Positions 12,898 through 46,233 of a DNA stretch of 64,000 nucleotides are shown here, one piece after another. Each line of letters begins with the position of its first letter. Position 1 is the first letter of the stretch. The notes below the pieces were generated by a model. The model was not told the origin of the DNA and did no database searches. It was given only the letters and a program-made list of their open reading frames with translations. Both the position numbers and the translations under genes were made by a program. Source of the stretch: Acidisoma silvae (lineage in GTDB: Bacteria; Pseudomonadota; Alphaproteobacteria; Acetobacterales; Acetobacteraceae); assembly GCF_020618775.1 (NCBI RefSeq), contig NZ_JAESVB010000003.1, forward strand, positions 248,001 to 312,000. The letters run 5' to 3'.

Positions 12898-13011
12898 CGC
12901 TTGGCCCGACCTTATGCCGCGCCTTTGCCGAGATAGATTGCGGCTACTGCGAGAATTATAGCGCACGATCACGATCGCTCCGCCAGAAATGGTTAAATGC
13001 AAATATATGAA

Positions 13012-13923
13012 TCAATCACGACCGCGCCGCGCCGCGCGATCCAAGTTTTGCAAGGCCGCCACCGCGTGGAGAAGCGTGCTTTCCGCCGTTTGATGAAGAC
13101 AGCGCAGCGGCGCGCGCACTGAACCGTCCGCAATGCCGCTTTTCTTGAGAATAGCCTTCAAACCCACAGAAGGATGGACAGCATTCAAAGCGCACGAAGA
13201 TGATATCAAGACATCGCGAATCGTACGAAACTGTCCGACATCGCTTAAATTCCAGGTAGAAACGAGTTGAGCGCAGGCACGGGGGGCGACATTGCCTATT
13301 GGGCTGATCCAGCCCTGGCCGCCCGCCGCGATATGGCAAGCCGCCAGGCGGTCATCCGCTATCAATTGTACAAAAGTTTCCCCCAGTATCGACTGTCGGC
13401 GCGAAAAACGAATTGGATCCAGGTGGTTGAGAACCAGACCGTAGATGAGATCAGAGCGGAAAAGGGATTCAATCATGTCTTCCGAAATATGTGGGCGGAG
13501 GAGCGCATCGCCATGCTCGACGAAGACAGGCCTATCGATGGCATGGCTCACGCGCCGGATACAGCTTTGCGCTTCCTCCGGTCCAAAGGATGATGAATGT
13601 GGCAAACGACAAATAAGCGCGTCTGCACCGCCGCGAATCAAAAGCTGCGCCAAATCATCCGTTTGCCGATGCATAGAAAAATCGAGATAGGCCAAAACCA
13701 GACTGCGGCGTCGCGAGGTATCGTTTGCGATCTCGACAAGCCGCAGCAATTCAGATTCACCCAGGCTGAGGCCTTCACCAATGTCTGAACCGATAACAAG
13801 ATCTGTCCTAGCCTCAAGCTGCTTATCACATAATATTTGAAACGCTTCCTCGTCGATGCGACCGTCACGGAATGGCGTCACGAGTGCAGTGTAAACGCGA
13901 TTGTAATCCAATAAGACAGACAT
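13012..13923 (-). CDS. Dihydrodipicolinate synthase (DapA/NanA) superfamily protein, catalytic residues apparently lost
   Basis: The 303-residue frame from ATG 13923 follows the DHDPS/N-acetylneuraminate lyase fold: YTALVTPFRDGRIDEEAF at the start, VIGSDIGEGLSLGESE in place of the GTTGE loop, and AGGQGWISPIGNVAPRACAQ near the end, matching the GG-GVISV-aNvaP segment. Where E. coli DapA has the Schiff-base Lys161 (GIKEATG) this protein reads GLVLNHLDP, and where it has Tyr133 (YNVPSR) it reads FVEHGDALLR. The aldolase chemistry therefore looks lost, suggesting a binding, regulatory or structural role. It lies in the AT-richer island, divergent from the GT-like gene. Confidence 0.7.
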   Translation of the reverse strand: MSVLLDYNRVYTALVTPFRDGRIDEEAFQILCDKQLEARTDLVIGSDIGEGLSLGESELLRLVEIANDTSRRRSLVLAYLDFSMHRQTDDLAQLLIRGGADALICRLPHSSSFGPEEAQSCIRRVSHAIDRPVFVEHGDALLRPHISEDMIESLFRSDLIYGLVLNHLDPIRFSRRQSILGETFVQLIADDRLAACHIAAGGQGWISPIGNVAPRACAQLVSTWNLSDVGQFRTIRDVLISSSCALNAVHPSVGLKAILKKSGIADGSVRAPLRCLHQTAESTLLHAVAALQNLDRAARRGRD

Positions 13924-14412
13924 GAGACGCCATCCAAAAGCAGGGAATACTGTCGTGCAACAGCAGGTGCGGCAAATCCTGCGAGCGCTTTCGACTATCT
14001 GCAATCGGCAGGTTCGCAGGCCTGACAAGAAATAGAAAAATCCATATCAATCAATATATTACGGGCTTTTATATCTTTTAAATGCAGAAAACCCTTTTTT
14101 ACTATGGATTTTTAACGGCAGCCGCTACCAGCCTTGTGAGGGGTCAATACAACACTGACGAGGACACCGCTTGCGATGATTTCGCGATATATTTTTCAGC
14201 CTTTTATTCTTCTTATACTGTGATTCATTGCTGAAACTTCCCTCTATTTTAAATGAGTTTTCAGAGATCCGCTGATAGCGCAGCAAGGCTCGTAGCATTT
14301 CAGAAAATGTCCAGTAATACGCATGATGAGCGACGCTCTATTCGTATTCGCACCGCTACTATCATGCGTAGTCGTGCCATCTTCTCTTTTCTAAAAAAAA
14401 TCTGAACATAGA
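13924..14412. other. AT-rich divergent intergenic region (489 bp)
   Basis: No credible gene is visible. The stretch separates the divergent DHDPS-like and glycosyltransferase-like genes and is much richer in A+T than the rest of the window, with runs such as ccctttttt and ctaaaaaaaatc. It contains an inverted repeat (tatggattttt at about 14103-14113 against its complement at about 14035-14045) and a 10-bp inverted repeat at 14319-14370. Both promoters must lie here. Confidence 0.6.
14319..14370. repeat. 10-bp perfect inverted repeat upstream of the glycosyltransferase-like gene
   Basis: The arms tacgcatgat (14318-14327) and atcatgcgta (14361-14370) are perfect reverse complements separated by 33 bases. 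The right arm ends 42 bp before the ATG at 14413. It could be a paired operator half-site or a leader hairpin. Confidence 0.5.
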
Positions 14413-15852
14413 ATGACACAAAATACTTTATATTTCGGCATTCCTACCAACAGGCTGCGCGATGTCTCAGACACCGTAACGGCCTACGACGAAAATTTTT
14501 GGCATAACGGCCATTCCGTACCGATCATGATATTCGACGATTCATCCATCGCAAATCACGAAAAATATTTTCCTAATCTTGAAGAAATAAAGACTTACAA
14601 CGAGGTATTTTATATCGGTCCAGCCGAGAAAGAGCAGTTCATCGGTCTGATCTGTCGCAGATTACGCGATCGCAAACTCGAGGCACTTGTCCGTAATCTG
14701 TTCAGGCCCAGCTACGGCGGCAACCGCAACTTCAGCCTGATGTACACGATTGGCGACCATTTCGTCAGTTCTGACGATGATATGCGACCCTTTGCCCTCA
14801 TTGAGGATAGCCCGGAATCCCTGGGTGAAGGGGAGATCAGTCGCGGCAAGCTTATTAATCGCCGTGCAAACGGCCATACGCGGCGAAGTTTCGATATCAT
14901 TCAGTCCTTCCGCGATATCCTTGGCAAGACCGCTTTTGAAGCACCATCGAATTATGAACGCGGCGAATTGCTGATCGACAGCAGTATGGATCTGGAATCC
15001 AATACCTCACTCGGTTTCGTTCGGGAAAATTCACTCGGCCTGCAGGCCGGAAAAGTCCCAAAACATGCCTTGGTTAAAATAGCCCAGACATTCCGAACAG
15101 GAACAAATGATATTGACGCCGTCGATTATCTCTCCATTTTTTTAGAGGATGAATCAAGTCTTGATCCAGAAGCGCTGAACGATTCCTACGTGCTGGTAAA
15201 TTTCCGTCCCTGTGTCACCAATAGAAATTGGCGCATGGATTGCGGTGTCGCTGGTTATGATAATTCTCATGGCTTGCCGCCGTTTTTCCCAATCCGCCTA
15301 CGTTTTGAGGATTACATTTACCGACTCTGGATTCAACAGCCCAATGTCATCTCGGCGCATGTGGATTCCGCGCAAACGCATATCAAGAGCAACTACATGC
15401 GCAGCCCGCTGGCAGCGGAGATTTTTAATGAGTCAATTTGCAGTCTTCTGAAAAACAAAATCCGTATGACGCTAAGTCGTGTCGAAGAACACGGCATCCA
15501 ATTCGACTATGATGGTTACGTCAGTCTACAGGATAGCGCTGATCTTCTGGATCAAGCCAATCATCTGCTCGATCGTATCGCCAAGGCTGCTCAAGAGACC
15601 GAGGCACCAGATCGCGTGATTGCCCTCAAGAGCTTCAGTGAAAATCTGCGCCGCTCTCTCTATGATCTGGAGCCAGACTTCTTTCAGCAAAATGTCAGCC
15701 GAATTGTGAGCGAAGAGGTGAGCCTCATCAAATCGGCGCTCGAACTCTGGCCGACATTGCTGGAAATCGCCTATTTTCAACGTAAGGGTAAGGCGCTGCC
15801 AATGCGCCGCGTGAAAACCAAAGCAAAGGTGGCGCAGCGAGCCGCCAGCTGA
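14413..15852 (+). CDS. Unassigned GT-A glycosyltransferase-like protein
   Basis: A 479-residue soluble-looking protein I cannot place in a named family. The N-terminal part resembles a GT-A nucleotide-sugar domain: a first strand at LYFGIPTNRL, VPIMIFDDSS with Asp42/Asp43, YGGNRNFSLMYTIGD at about 101-115, and SSDDDMRPF with Asp121-123 as a likely D-x-D metal site. The middle region contains GVAGYDNSHGLPPFFPIRLRFED, and the C-terminal third (about 350-460) is helical and charged without membrane helices. Codon use is AT-richer than in flanking genes, as in the neighbouring DHDPS-like gene, which suggests acquisition of the island by transfer. Donor and acceptor are unknown. Confidence 0.6.
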   Translation: MTQNTLYFGIPTNRLRDVSDTVTAYDENFWHNGHSVPIMIFDDSSIANHEKYFPNLEEIKTYNEVFYIGPAEKEQFIGLICRRLRDRKLEALVRNLFRPSYGGNRNFSLMYTIGDHFVSSDDDMRPFALIEDSPESLGEGEISRGKLINRRANGHTRRSFDIIQSFRDILGKTAFEAPSNYERGELLIDSSMDLESNTSLGFVRENSLGLQAGKVPKHALVKIAQTFRTGTNDIDAVDYLSIFLEDESSLDPEALNDSYVLVNFRPCVTNRNWRMDCGVAGYDNSHGLPPFFPIRLRFEDYIYRLWIQQPNVISAHVDSAQTHIKSNYMRSPLAAEIFNESICSLLKNKIRMTLSRVEEHGIQFDYDGYVSLQDSADLLDQANHLLDRIAKAAQETEAPDRVIALKSFSENLRRSLYDLEPDFFQQNVSRIVSEEVSLIKSALELWPTLLEIAYFQRKGKALPMRRVKTKAKVAQRAAS

Positions 15853-15890
15853 AGCGACCATGCGCAACACGCCGACTGAAGCGCACCGGC

Positions 15891-16877
15891 TCACCCCCTG
15901 CCCACAACCCGCGCCGCCGCGCCCAGAATGTCGAACAGGTCCAGCAGCCGGGCCACGTAATGGTCATGCACGGCGAAGCCCTGGGCAGTGGGGTCAAAGA
16001 ACTGCCGTTCCAGGGCGTCCACCATCTTCGTCAATCGTTTCTGGTGCAATCCTAATCGCCGCTGCACCGGGTCGGCGATGATGCCGGCGAAGGCGGCCAG
16101 TGACGCCGAGGCCAGCATCAGCCCGCCCGTCGTGCCCATCACCAGCCCCGCCGCCGGGGGGGCGATGGGGAAGACCACATACCAGGCGGACGCCGCCCAG
16201 GCGCCCAGCGGAAAGCTGGACGCCGCCACATGTTGCGAAATCACCCCGGCCAGCGCGGGGCCCAGCGTCGCCGCCCCCGGCGTCAGCTTCTGCACGGCCA
16301 GCGCGCCGGCGCCGAGGTTGAGCAGTCCCGTCGTAATCTCGGCCGCCGCGCCGCGCGTCAGCCCGTATTCGGCCATCGCTTCCCGCAGCCGCGCCGCGAA
16401 GGCAGGGTCCGCCCGATGCCGGCCGATCTCAGCCAGCAGGGTCTCAATCGTCCCTTCCAGAACCGGGCTTTCCAGAATGGCATCCGTCAGGGCGTTGCGA
16501 TTGCTGACCCGATGCTTCTGCGCCATCGGCAGGCCCAGCAGCACGGTCATGATCCGCCACTCAATCTCCTCCGCCACATCGGTGGGCAGCAGAATGGAAC
16601 GGTCCAGCAGCTTTTCCACCCGCTTGGCGCGCAGCCTGCGGGCAGCCTTCGCCCCCAGTTGCATCGCCACCTGCGGCAACGCCAGCGTCAGGTTCAGCGG
16701 CGCGCGGGCGATATCCCAACCCACCGCCGCGCGGTGCAAGGCGAGCGACCCGGTGAAGGAAAAATTCGCATCCACGAAAGGCCCGATCATCGTGCGCCGG
16801 GCCGCGAAATAGCGGCGCGCCCCGTCTTCCACGGCGGCGCGGGCGGCTGTCAGGTCCAGCGTCTGATTATCCGTCAT
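15891..16877 (-). CDS. Conserved hypothetical membrane-associated protein (DUF6635-like)
   Basis: A 328-residue alanine-rich protein. The N-terminal block ARRYFAARRTMIGPFVD and the central hydrophobic part (about 190-265, including GLVMGTTGGLMLASASLAAF) suggest a membrane-associated protein. It resembles what I recall as DUF6635, but I cannot confirm this and give no function. It follows ppa on the same strand but is separated from it by a terminator-like hairpin, so it probably has its own promoter. Confidence 0.65.
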   Translation of the reverse strand: MTDNQTLDLTAARAAVEDGARRYFAARRTMIGPFVDANFSFTGSLALHRAAVGWDIARAPLNLTLALPQVAMQLGAKAARRLRAKRVEKLLDRSILLPTDVAEEIEWRIMTVLLGLPMAQKHRVSNRNALTDAILESPVLEGTIETLLAEIGRHRADPAFAARLREAMAEYGLTRGAAAEITTGLLNLGAGALAVQKLTPGAATLGPALAGVISQHVAASSFPLGAWAASAWYVVFPIAPPAAGLVMGTTGGLMLASASLAAFAGIIADPVQRRLGLHQKRLTKMVDALERQFFDPTAQGFAVHDHYVARLLDLFDILGAAARVVGRG

Positions 16878-41846: not shown

Positions 41847-42878
41847 TCACTGACCTCGAACGAAATCGACCAGGTGCGCCACATGATCGGGGGGTGTCGG
41901 CGGCATCACGCCATGGCCGAGATTGAAGACGAAGGGGCGACCCTTCATGGCATCCAGGATAGCACGCGCTTCCTGTTCCATCACCTCTCCCCCGCTTAGA
42001 AGAGCAAAGGGATCAAGGTTGCCCTGCAGCCCTACCGTCGAAGGCACCAACTGCCTGACGAGATTGAGGTCTGCCGCCGTATCGACGCCCATGGTGCTGA
42101 CCCCTGTCTTTTCCGCATAGGCTGCCGCCATGGTGCCGGCGAGGCGCGGAAAGCCCACGATCGGGATATCGGGGTGATGCTGACGGATAGCGGCCACGAT
42201 GCGCGCTGTCGGCTGGATGACATGTTTCTCGAAGCTGGTCGGCGACAGCAAACCGGCCCAGCTGTCGAACAGCATCACCGCTTCCGCTCCGGCTGCGATC
42301 TGAGCCAGCAGGTAGGTGATGCTGGCCTGGGTGATCCGGTCAATCAGCCCATCGAACAGAGCGGGATCTTGGGCGGCCATTTTACGCGTCTCGGCAAAAT
42401 CCTTCGAACCGCCCCCTTCGACCATGTAGCAGGCCACCGTGAAGGGCGCGCCGACGAAGCCGATCAGCGCGGTGTCGGGATGCTCGGCCGCAAGCCTGGC
42501 GCGGGTCAGCCGGATGGTTTCCAGGACCGGCGTTACCTTTTCCAGGAATCCTTGAACCTGCAGGTTTTGCAATTCATCCACAGTCCGGAGTGGCGGCAGG
42601 CGTGGGCCATGGCCTTCATCAAAACGTAGCTCCCGTCCCAGAGCCCAGGGCAGGATCAGGATGTCGCTGAAGAGGATCGCGCCATCCATGCCGAAGCGGC
42701 GGATAGGCTGCAAGGTCGCCTCGGAAGCCCGTGTCGGATCCAGACAAAAACTAACAAAATCAGTAGTTTGAGAACGAAGTTCCCGATACTCCGGGAGGTA
42801 TCTTCCAGCCTGCCGCATCAGCCAAATGGGCGGTGGCCAGACGGTTTTCCCCAGAAATGCGTCCAAAAGTCTTTTCAC
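41847..42878 (-). CDS. hemE: Uroporphyrinogen decarboxylase HemE
   Basis: Decarboxylates uroporphyrinogen III to coproporphyrinogen III. The signature PIWLMRQAGRYLPEYRELR, ILFSDILILPWALG and GFVGAPFTVACYMVEG are present. I place the start at GTG 42878, which has GGGGA five bases upstream; a TTG at 42890 adds four residues. The RBS itself lies in a DnaA-box-like TTATCCCCA. In alphaproteobacteria such as Caulobacter this gene borders oriC. Confidence 0.96.
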   Translation of the reverse strand: MKRLLDAFLGKTVWPPPIWLMRQAGRYLPEYRELRSQTTDFVSFCLDPTRASEATLQPIRRFGMDGAILFSDILILPWALGRELRFDEGHGPRLPPLRTVDELQNLQVQGFLEKVTPVLETIRLTRARLAAEHPDTALIGFVGAPFTVACYMVEGGGSKDFAETRKMAAQDPALFDGLIDRITQASITYLLAQIAAGAEAVMLFDSWAGLLSPTSFEKHVIQPTARIVAAIRQHHPDIPIVGFPRLAGTMAAAYAEKTGVSTMGVDTAADLNLVRQLVPSTVGLQGNLDPFALLSGGEVMEQEARAILDAMKGRPFVFNLGHGVMPPTPPDHVAHLVDFVRGQ

Positions 42879-43186
42879 GGTTATCCCCAAAGAAGGTCGG
42901 TCTCCCTACTAACTCAGAATAGAATTTTAAGTAGGTGGGGGTAGTAGATGGGGTGTGGAAAAGCGGGGTACCCGGTCGGCCCAGTTTTTCTCCCCAGAGT
43001 TTTCCACAGGCTTGAGAGGGATTAGCGCGCTGTTTTTTCTCAAGACTCTGTGACCGCCCCGTTACAGCCCGGTTAGGGCCGTACACATCTTCACATGTAC
43101 GCTGGAATTGCAGGCTGTCCCCGCATGGCGCGCCGCCCAGCCGAAGCGCTCTCCCTTATCCCCACTTATCCCGTTATGATCCCGAG
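42879..43186. other. oriC: Chromosomal replication origin (oriC)
   Basis: A 308-bp gap between divergent hemE and ppsR, the classic oriC place of Caulobacter (Cori) and Rickettsia. It contains DnaA-box-like 9-mers: TTATCCCCA at 42881-42889 and 43156-43164, TTATCCCGT at 43166-43174, TTTTCCACA at 43000-43008, and its complement TGTGGAAAA at 42954-42962. TCCCCA (the Caulobacter W-box) occurs at 42884, 42991 and 43159 here and at 42848 inside hemE. AT-rich patches lie at 42911-42932 and 43031-43041. Flanking genes are transcribed outward, away from the origin on both sides. Confidence 0.85.
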
Positions 43187-44068
43187 ATGTCCACGCACAG
43201 ATTGAACCTCCATCTGGTCTCGGATGCGACCGGCGAGACGCTCAACGCTATCGCCCGCGCGACCACCGTTCAGTTCGAGCATCTGGCCATCGTGCCCCAT
43301 CGCTGGAGCCTGATCCGGACGCGGTTTCAGCTGCATCGGGTGCTGGACGGATTGCAGGCCGAGCCCGGTCCGGTGCTGTCCAGCCTGGTCGATCGCGCGC
43401 TGCGCAGCGAGCTGGATATGGCCTGCGACCGCTTGGGCGTGCCGATCGTGCACGTGCTGGATCAGGTCATGACGATGCTGCAGGACCATCTGGGCGAGCA
43501 GGCCTCTGCCCGGCCGGGGCGACAGTATATACTGGATGCCGATTATTTCCGGCGGATCGACGCCATTCATTATGTTCTGGCGCATGATGACGGGCAGGCT
43601 CAGGCCGGGATTGCAGAGGCCGATATCATTCTGGTCGGCGTCTCGCGCTCGTCCAAAACCCCGACCTCCTTCTATCTGGCCAATCGCGGCATCAAGGCGG
43701 GCAATATTCCACTGGTGCCGGGCATCGCGCTGTCTGATGCGCTGGATAATCCGCGCTGCCCTGTCGTGGGGCTGACGCTGGATCCGCAATCGCTGATCGA
43801 TATCCGCCGTCATCGCCTGCGGATGCTGGGCACGCATCAAGCGATAGGCCAGGCGCCGGATCGGGGCGATTACACCGACCTGGAGGCCGTCACGGCCGAA
43901 CTGCTATGGGCCAAGCGGCTTTGCACCAGCCGCGGCTGGCCGGTGATCGATGTCAGCCGCCGGTCCATCGAGGAGACGGCGGCGACGATCATTCAACTGA
44001 TGGAATCCTGGACCGAACGCCGGCTGAAGGCAGAGGCTGAACGCCGATCCGGCACGATTACACCTTGA
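43187..44068 (+). CDS. ppsR: Pyruvate, water/phosphate dikinase regulatory protein (DUF299)
   Basis: A 293-residue bifunctional kinase/pyrophosphorylase that inactivates PEP synthase or PPDK by ADP-dependent phosphorylation. [18 protein letters not shown] opens the family, and [18 protein letters not shown] is the P-loop region. DUF299 is the gene flanking oriC in Caulobacter and Rickettsia, so its position here supports the origin call. Which target (PpsA or PpdK) it controls is not visible. Confidence 0.94.
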
Positions 44069-44157: not shown

Positions 44158-44601
44158 ATGCTATCCAGCCGCGCTAAATATGCCCTCCGTGCCATTTTGA
44201 TCCTTGTGGAGGAGGCTGAGGCTGATCACTGGACCAGTGCGCAGACCATTGCCGAGCGCAGCGACACACCCAGGAAATTCCTTGAAGCAATCCTGGTGCA
44301 GCTGCGCGACCAAGGTTTCATTCAAAGCCGCCGGGGCCCGGTCGGCGGCCATAAGCTGCTAATGCCGGCCAGCCAGATATCGGTTGCCGATGTCATGCGG
44401 ATCATCGATGGGCCCATCGCGCTGACACCTTGCGCCAGCAAGACCCGCTTCGGTGTCTGCAAGGATTGCAAGGATATCGAGACCTGCCAGCTGACCGACC
44501 TCATGAAACGGGTGCGCGATGCGGCGGCCGCGGTTCTGGAGGGCTGCACCATCGCCGATCTGGCTAAGGTGCCGCAGGCGGGAGCGATGCTTTCTCTTTG
44601 A
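44158..44601 (+). CDS. Rrf2-family transcriptional regulator with cysteine cluster
   Basis: A 147-residue winged-helix regulator: MLSSRAKYALRAILILVEE, GFIQSRRGPVGGHKLLMPA (wing) and four cysteines at 92, 101, 104 and 110 (ALTPCASKTRFGVCKDC...C), a set that could ligate an Fe-S cluster as in IscR/NsrR/RirA or act as redox thiols. The adjacent flavoprotein gene and a palindrome between them suggest local control. The signal sensed cannot be told. Confidence 0.87.
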   Translation: MLSSRAKYALRAILILVEEAEADHWTSAQTIAERSDTPRKFLEAILVQLRDQGFIQSRRGPVGGHKLLMPASQISVADVMRIIDGPIALTPCASKTRFGVCKDCKDIETCQLTDLMKRVRDAAAAVLEGCTIADLAKVPQAGAMLSL

Positions 44602-44646: not shown

Positions 44647-44799
44647 ATGCTGGCATAATGGGGCATGAAAGCGCATGCTATTTTCGAGCTTGCGCCGATC
44701 TGGCTGCGTGTCATCTGCTGTTGGCCTACCACCATCGGGCCGTGACGTTTGTCGCAAAGATTGCAGTCCGCGAAACGGTCTTTTCGGAAGGGAGACAGG

Positions 44800-46233
44800 A
44801 TGACCCAACAGACCATCGCCATTGTCGGCGCGGGCTTCAGTGGCACCCTGCTGGCGCTGCATTTGATGCGGCAATGCTCACCCGAGACCCGCATCGTCCT
44901 GATCGAGCGCAACCAGCATTTCGGGCGCGGCGCCGCCTATTCCACTGGCAATTCCTCGCATCTTCTGAATGTCCCGGCTGCCAAGATGAGCGCCTTCCAG
45001 GCGCGGCCCTCCGATTTCCTGGACTGGCTGAAAGCCTGTCCGCCCGAACTGCTGGACGGCCTGCAACCGCTGCCCACGACCTTCGTTCCCCGCGCGATTT
45101 TTGGCCGCTATATCAGCGATCTTCTTGAAAACGAGATGAAGTCCACCCTTCATTGCGGACAGCTTGAATTGCTGCGGGCCGATGTCACTGATATCGCACC
45201 CGGATCGGGCGGCATGGTGGTGACGCTCGGCAATGGCGAAGCCCTGCCGGTCGACCGCGCGGTGCTGGCGGTGGGTAATTTCCCGCCCTCGCCGCCGCCC
45301 GTCGCCGATGCGAGTTTCTATGATACCGAGCATTATCGCCCTGACCCCTGGGCGCCTGACCTGCTCGATAATCTGGACCCGGAAGCCCCGCTGCTGCTGA
45401 TCGGCACCGGTCTGACGACCGTCGATACCGTCGTCTCGCTGCTCGACCGCGCCCATCGCGGCCCGATCGTCGCTTTGTCCCGCCGTGGATTGCTGCCGCA
45501 GAATCATCTTCTGGGCCCGGTCAAAACGGCGCTGCCGGAAACCGAGGAATTTCCGACGCGGCTCAGCAATCTCGCGCGTTTTCTGCGGGATCGCAGCGGC
45601 CAGGCACGGGAGGCCGGCGGATCCTGGCAGGCGGTGATCGACGAATTGCGGCCGATGACGACGGAAATCTGGCAGGCCATGCCGCATGAGGACCGTCTGC
45701 GCTTCCTGCGTCATCTGCGTCCCTGGTGGGATACGCATCGCCATCGCATTTCCGGCCCGGTCGCGGCGCGCATCGCGGAGGCTCGCCGCACTGGCCAGTT
45801 GCGCATTCAGGCCGGACGCATCCGGGGTTACAGCGTGACGCCGGACGGGGTGGAAGTGACCTATCGGCCGCGCTTCAAGGACGAGCTGGACAGCTTGACC
45901 GTCGGACGCGTGATCAACTGTTCCGGGCCGGAAAGCGATTTCGGCCGCATTCGTGACCCGCTGGTCCGCCGCATGCTGGATCAGGGGATGGTGCGGCCGG
46001 ATGCGCTGTCGTTGGGTCTTGATATTACCCGGACCTGCGCGCTGCTGGGCCGCGACGGCGGCATTTCCCGTCGCTTGTTCGCCATCGGCCCTGTCACCAA
46101 GGGCGCCTTCTGGGAAATGACGGCGGTGCCCGATATCCGCCAGCAGGCTGAATTCCTGGCCGGGCAATTGGCAGCACTGGTCAAGCCGCCTGCGGTGGCG
46201 GCCCAATCATCGGACGTATCCTGGTCGATCTGA
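44800..46233 (+). CDS. FAD/NAD(P)-binding protein, YdhS-like
   Basis: A 477-residue flavoprotein of the FAD-NAD(P)-binding family (E. coli YdhS, pfam NAD_binding_9). MTQQTIAIVGAGFSGTLLAL is the FAD Rossmann motif, GRGAAYSTGNSSHLLNVPA is characteristic of the family, and LLIGTGLTTVDTVVSLLDRA is a second dinucleotide-binding site. The ATG at 44800 has GGAAGGGAG upstream. Its substrate is unknown; the upstream Rrf2 gene suggests redox or sulfur/iron-linked control. Confidence 0.8.
   Translation: MTQQTIAIVGAGFSGTLLALHLMRQCSPETRIVLIERNQHFGRGAAYSTGNSSHLLNVPAAKMSAFQARPSDFLDWLKACPPELLDGLQPLPTTFVPRAIFGRYISDLLENEMKSTLHCGQLELLRADVTDIAPGSGGMVVTLGNGEALPVDRAVLAVGNFPPSPPPVADASFYDTEHYRPDPWAPDLLDNLDPEAPLLLIGTGLTTVDTVVSLLDRAHRGPIVALSRRGLLPQNHLLGPVKTALPETEEFPTRLSNLARFLRDRSGQAREAGGSWQAVIDELRPMTTEIWQAMPHEDRLRFLRHLRPWWDTHRHRISGPVAARIAEARRTGQLRIQAGRIRGYSVTPDGVEVTYRPRFKDELDSLTVGRVINCSGPESDFGRIRDPLVRRMLDQGMVRPDALSLGLDITRTCALLGRDGGISRRLFAIGPVTKGAFWEMTAVPDIRQQAEFLAGQLAALVKPPAVAAQSSDVSWSI

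Follow-up and report, generated by a model that had tools for sequence, protein, structure and literature searches.

The replication origin of Caulobacter crescentus, Cori, has been mapped experimentally to the interval between hemE and COG1806 (PMC1914354). The predicted origins of Rickettsia prowazekii and its relatives have the same two boundary genes, while in Wolbachia and Ehrlichia the predicted origin remained beside hemE after COG1806 had separated from it (PMC1914354); there the other neighbour is COG1253, a CBS-domain gene. Within the Rhodospirillales, dnaA is generally not near ori (PMC8116508). According to a review, CtrA sites have not been seen in most other alphaproteobacterial origins.

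We analysed a 64,000-bp stretch of Acidisoma silvae DNA, hereafter the window, which covers positions 248,001-312,000 of contig C3 in a 5.44-Mb assembly of 82 contigs (G000). An initial annotation had proposed that the gap between hemE and ppsR (DUF299/COG1806) is the chromosomal replication origin. This interpretation is supported by a cluster of DnaA boxes, a switch in strand composition, the identity of the boundary genes and conservation among relatives, and we predict with high confidence that the 308-bp gap is the chromosomal origin of this bacterium, an acidophile of soil. The prediction places an origin in a genus for which we found no mapped origin in the literature.

In its position and general design the gap matches the Caulobacter-type origin, and is an origin of a known kind. 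It shares with Cori the boundary genes, a cluster of DnaA boxes accompanied by weak TCCCCA-type sites, and an AT-rich stretch (PMC1914354, PMC4468827). It is shorter than Cori (308 against about 404 bp) and, unlike Cori, it has no CtrA, G-box or IHF sites at up to one mismatch, but carries the element GGGGTACC. The Rickettsia gaps, at 383-396 bp, are about 82% AT and are reported to contain CtrA sites, whereas the Acidisoma gap is 44.5% AT and contains none.

The locus and its boundary genes

Profile matches (TIGR01464, NF003742) identify the flanking genes as hemE and ppsR, the pair that flanks Cori and marks the location of Cori-type origins, and both are transcribed outward, as had been claimed. 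Leftward of the gap the minus strand is used throughout by hemE, hemH, a HAD phosphatase gene and hemJ, with rho farther left; ppsR lies to the right on the plus strand. PpsR is 94% identical to its counterpart in Acidisoma cellulosilyticum and 85-88% identical to those in other Acidisoma-like genomes, which marks its host as an Acidisoma-like member of Acetobacteraceae. Table 1 collects the features of the gap and its borders.

Table 1. Features of the hemE–ppsR region (window coordinates)
Feature	Position	Strand	Remarks
hemE, uroporphyrinogen decarboxylase, left boundary gene	41847..42878	-	GTG start at 42878; TIGR01464 382.6 bits, cut-off 302.95
DnaA-box-like TTTTCCCCA, within hemE 5' end	42845..42853	+	motif scan
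Putative chromosomal replication origin, hemE–ppsR intergenic gap	42879..43186	none	308 bp; skew minimum, densest DnaA-box cluster, length kept in most relatives
DnaA-box-like TTATCCCCA, beside hemE start	42881..42889	+	identical in A. cellulosilyticum; CTATCCCCA in MAG G5_19
Candidate DNA unwinding element, most AT-rich 40 bp of gap	42907..42946	none	AT-rich stretch of relatives likewise here
TAGTAG, two DnaA-trio-like triplets (tentative, weak)	42942..42947	+	6 bp before box; published rule is three triplets (PMC8287927)
Putative DnaA box TTTTCCACA	42954..42962	-	family consensus at this site TTATCCACA
GGGGTACC, Acetobacteraceae-specific conserved element	42965..42972	none	part of GGGGTACCCC palindrome in relatives
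Weak DnaA-box-like TTCTCCCCA, W-box-like TCCCCA	42988..42996	+	motif scan
Putative DnaA box TTTTCCACA (TTGTCCACA in many relatives)	43000..43008	+	inverted relative to 42954-42962
TCCCCGCA, decayed form of the conserved family motif TTATCCCCGCT	43118..43125	+	column conservation
DnaA-box-like TTATCCCCA	43156..43164	+	alignment column conserved
Weak DnaA-box-like TTATCCCGT	43166..43174	+	family column conserved
ppsR (DUF299/COG1806), PEP synthase regulator, right boundary gene	43187..44068	+	NF003742 292.8 bits, cut-off 225

Strand composition and the position of dnaA

Skew was computed along contig C2 in full, C3 almost in full and C1 in part. Along the 541 kb of C3 the cumulative (G+T)-(A+C) sum falls steadily to position 290,924, which is window position 42,924 and lies in the gap, and then rises. 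A one-change-point model places the switch in keto skew at 291 kb (95% block-bootstrap interval 280-301 kb), with a change-point statistic far above those of 1000 block permutations. The plain GC skew has its minimum at ∼33.9 kb of the window and its change-point at 282 kb of C3 (CI 270-291 kb). The strand-composition switch of a Cori-type origin is found inside the gap by keto skew, which favours the origin interpretation; the GC-skew minimum, 9 kb away, counts against it. The chromosomal parB (C3:378,003) and, at C3:380,118, a GTTTCACGTGAAAC parS site are about 87-89 kb from the gap, as is expected close to an origin.

An origin beside dnaA, as the only active one, would have counted against this interpretation. 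In fact dnaA is on another contig (C2:153,939), whose skew is almost uniformly negative and shows no switch at the gene. In a complete, single-contig Acetobacteraceae relative of 2.74 Mb (G089), skew is positive in each of the ten 20-kb blocks sampled as far as 1.26 Mb and negative in each of the ten sampled from 1.40 Mb onwards, so that the skew boundaries fall at the hemE/ppsR end (hemE and ppsR at 1.6-3.8 kb) and about half-way round. Its dnaA, at 187 kb, sits inside one arm, ∼185 kb from hemE/ppsR, in agreement with what has been reported for Rhodospirillales. From the absence of a skew switch at dnaA, and its distance from the flip in G089, we reject an origin at dnaA. In a further relative, G041, skew is weak and noisy, and its switch lies roughly 0.1-0.2 Mb away from hemE/ppsR.

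DnaA boxes and a candidate unwinding region

All of the motifs named in the initial annotation are present where it had put them, including at least five DnaA-box-like 9-mers. TCCCCA occurs at 42884, 42991 and 43159, and at 42848 within hemE. The AT-rich patches it described are also real: AT content is above average, as in Cori-type origins (44.5% in the gap against 37% in the window), and the gap's best 40-mer, at 65% AT, is among the 0.7% most AT-rich of the window.

At up to one mismatch, TTATCCMCA occurs five times in the 308-bp gap, where a stretch of this length has 0.043 on average; no other locus in the 1.6 Mb sampled reaches such a density. A pattern search of the whole 5.44-Mb assembly found 76 exact TTWTCCMCA sites, five of which fall within 320 bp here, against a Poisson expectation of 0.0045; one of the five lies barely within hemE. 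Elsewhere among these 76 sites, no group of three lies within 1 kb. Chance is therefore excluded as the source of the cluster, and the gap has the genome-unique set of DnaA boxes that characterises Cori-type origins.

On the basis of this anatomy and of what is generally known about oriC, DnaA would bind the inverted box pair at 42954-42962 and 43000-43008 and cooperatively occupy the weaker TTATCCCC and TCCCCA sites on both sides. The resulting DnaA filament would open the AT-rich stretch on the hemE side (about 42907-42935), and helicase loading would then give rise to two diverging forks. Next to the first box, the GGGGTACC element is probably bound by a second, lineage-specific factor, or else helps to position the DnaA complex.

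A refinement of the origin reading, rather than a replacement for it, is that the gap holds a basal unwinding system of the Bacillus subtilis type (DnaA box, GC spacer, DnaA-trios) with its unwinding side toward hemE. The likeness is suggestive: the plus strand reads AT-rich DNA, TAGTAG, ATGGGG and TGTGGAAAA, in the order and orientation of 5'-tail trios beside a box (PMC8287927), and relatives have GGTAG and GGGCC ahead of TGTGGATAA. However, the search rule demands at least three NAN triplets on the 5'-tail strand, no more than 16 bp from a DnaA box, and the 42954 box has only two in register. The rule holds for some box in 30% of relatives, compared with 8.5% of shuffles; in the window this is solely the 43156 box, and weakly. 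We therefore put this refinement forward tentatively, as somewhat doubtful.

A TCAAGACTCTGTGAC block at 43038-43053 holds a GANTC (CcrM-type) site. It is shared with A. cellulosilyticum and MAG G5_19, has no counterpart in Acidisoma sp. L85, and may be a ppsR promoter or a methylation-sensitive site.

Comparative anatomy and a conserved palindrome in Acetobacteraceae

Where hemE lies beside ppsR in Acetobacteraceae, most gaps measure 295-350 bp, and lengths of 300-315 bp are common. An alignment of 54 non-redundant gaps shows conserved blocks with variable DNA between them, and TTATCCMCA (up to one mismatch) averages 3.09 per gap, compared with 0.16 in dinucleotide shuffles. The AT profile of the family peaks 20-60 bp from the hemE start codon. 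After this AT-rich stretch, reading away from hemE, come G-rich DNA with TAG; TGTGGATAAC and then GGGGTACC(CC); TNGTCCACAG; TTATCCCCGCT; and, directly before ppsR, TTATCCCC-GCTATCC. The comparison indicates that a hemE–ppsR origin, independent of dnaA, is general in much of the family.

Among these blocks is the composite TGTGGATAAC-GGGGTACC(CC), a DnaA box followed by a GGTACC palindrome. On the plus strand, exact GGGGTACC is present in 30 of the 54 gaps and GGTACC in 44; counting both strands, GGGGTACC is found in 76% of gaps and 2% of shuffles. Its start lies exactly 10 bp past the start of the best minus-strand DnaA-like word in 27 of 31 matches. The spacing is 11 in the window and in A. 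cellulosilyticum, apparently through a one-base slip of the box. Across 15 aligned gaps GGTACC does not vary; its presence was one of the grounds for choosing this set. Several relatives retain an intact palindrome although their box has decayed (5-6 of 9 positions), which suggests that the palindrome has a role of its own.

The element appears to be confined to the family. GGTACC is absent from all 27 hemE–ppsR gaps taken from other families, and the strict form TGTGGATNNNGGGGTACC, which the window itself does not have, finds no match in about 380 alphaproteobacterial genomes outside Acetobacteraceae. A looser pattern matches 87 of 200 Acetobacteraceae genomes, a figure that includes background, given that the reversed control also matches. 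Our literature search, which covered few subscription journals, returned no description of GGGGTACCCC in connection with a replication origin, only unrelated papers. This family-specific box-plus-palindrome element is a new part, and is worth specialist attention. It is possible, although we would not call it probable, that Acetobacteraceae origins carry a bipartite initiation element of their own lineage (box, one base, GGGGTACC(CC)), which binds a second origin protein, replaces control of the CtrA/IHF type and moves with hemE.

CtrA and IHF sites

The initial annotation had noted that CtrA sites are lacking and had suggested that control of initiation may differ. The absence itself stands: the gap contains no TTAA-N7-TTAA, even at one mismatch. 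Likewise, the G-box TGATCCACA is not found in the gap at up to one mismatch, and the IHF consensus WATCAANNNNTTR is present there only when two mismatches are allowed. Across the 54 Acetobacteraceae gaps, CtrA sites at one mismatch occur at close to the background frequency (mean 0.30; shuffles 0.15). The argument from this absence to unusual control is weak, since the absence is unsurprising: as the review states, such sites have not been seen in most other alphaproteobacterial origins. The Acidisoma genome encodes GcrA and a CtrA-like regulator (C4:216,582), the latter named by similarity only, as it scores 298 bits where the cut-off of the Rhodobacterales model is 350. Direct control by CtrA through a classical site is unlikely. 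The missing CtrA and IHF sites speak against Caulobacter-like control, and not against an origin of the hemE/COG1806 location class. For acetic acid bacteria and relatives without CtrA sites, the GGGGTACC element is a testable candidate for the target of an extra origin-binding factor.

Other possible functions for the gap

Could the gap encode a small RNA or leader, instead of or besides an origin? There is a precedent in the CcnA ncRNA of Caulobacter Cori (PMC8959179), and the length of the gap is conserved. However, the gap has no Rfam match at the gathering score, its conservation takes the form of short blocks resembling binding sites, and the consensus fold of 15 relatives (-0.52 kcal/mol) has just 5 pairs, which are the inverted DnaA boxes themselves. 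We consider this explanation improbable, and the missing Rfam match and consensus structure led us to reject an RNA element.

That the gap is instead a divergent promoter, with DnaA acting as transcription factor for hemE and ppsR and the origin lying elsewhere, for example at dnaA, is very improbable: Caulobacter DnaA does control promoters (PMC4468827) and both genes are transcribed away from the gap, but the skew switches here and not at dnaA, it flips at hemE/ppsR in the complete relative G089, no comparable box cluster occurs elsewhere in the genome, and a simple scan of the gap finds no sigma-70 promoter-like site. The same scan gave us no overlapping sigma-70 promoter, which leaves room for promoters of other types.

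Separation of hemE and ppsR

Returning to the gap as a replication origin, we consider genomes in which its boundary genes have parted. hemE and ppsR are apart in nine of 21 mostly well-assembled members of the family. In eight of these nine GGGGTACC lies upstream of hemE, and in most of the eight a DnaA-like word precedes it by ten bases. Conversely, at 13 Acetobacteraceae ppsR loci without hemE in reach, the 450 bp upstream contain neither GGTACC nor any of the DnaA-box words searched for, and we therefore reject the possibility that the origin stays with ppsR after separation. Taken together, these two results suggest that the origin element appears to stay with hemE, as the predicted origins of Wolbachia and Ehrlichia did. 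In one genome (G016), a perfect TGTGGATAACGGGGTACC lies on a contig other than that of ppsR (C110:7103-7120; L099), and may be a second copy, contamination or chance.

Elsewhere in the window, an ORF near the origin (44749-46233, 494 aa) has an FAD-NAD(P)-binding domain (PF13454) and is preceded by a gene for an Rrf2-family regulator (44158-44601). The region 13000-16000 is low in G+C (45-54% against 63%) and resembles acquired DNA; within it, a 479-aa ORF without a Pfam match (14413-15852) adjoins a dihydrodipicolinate-synthase-family gene.
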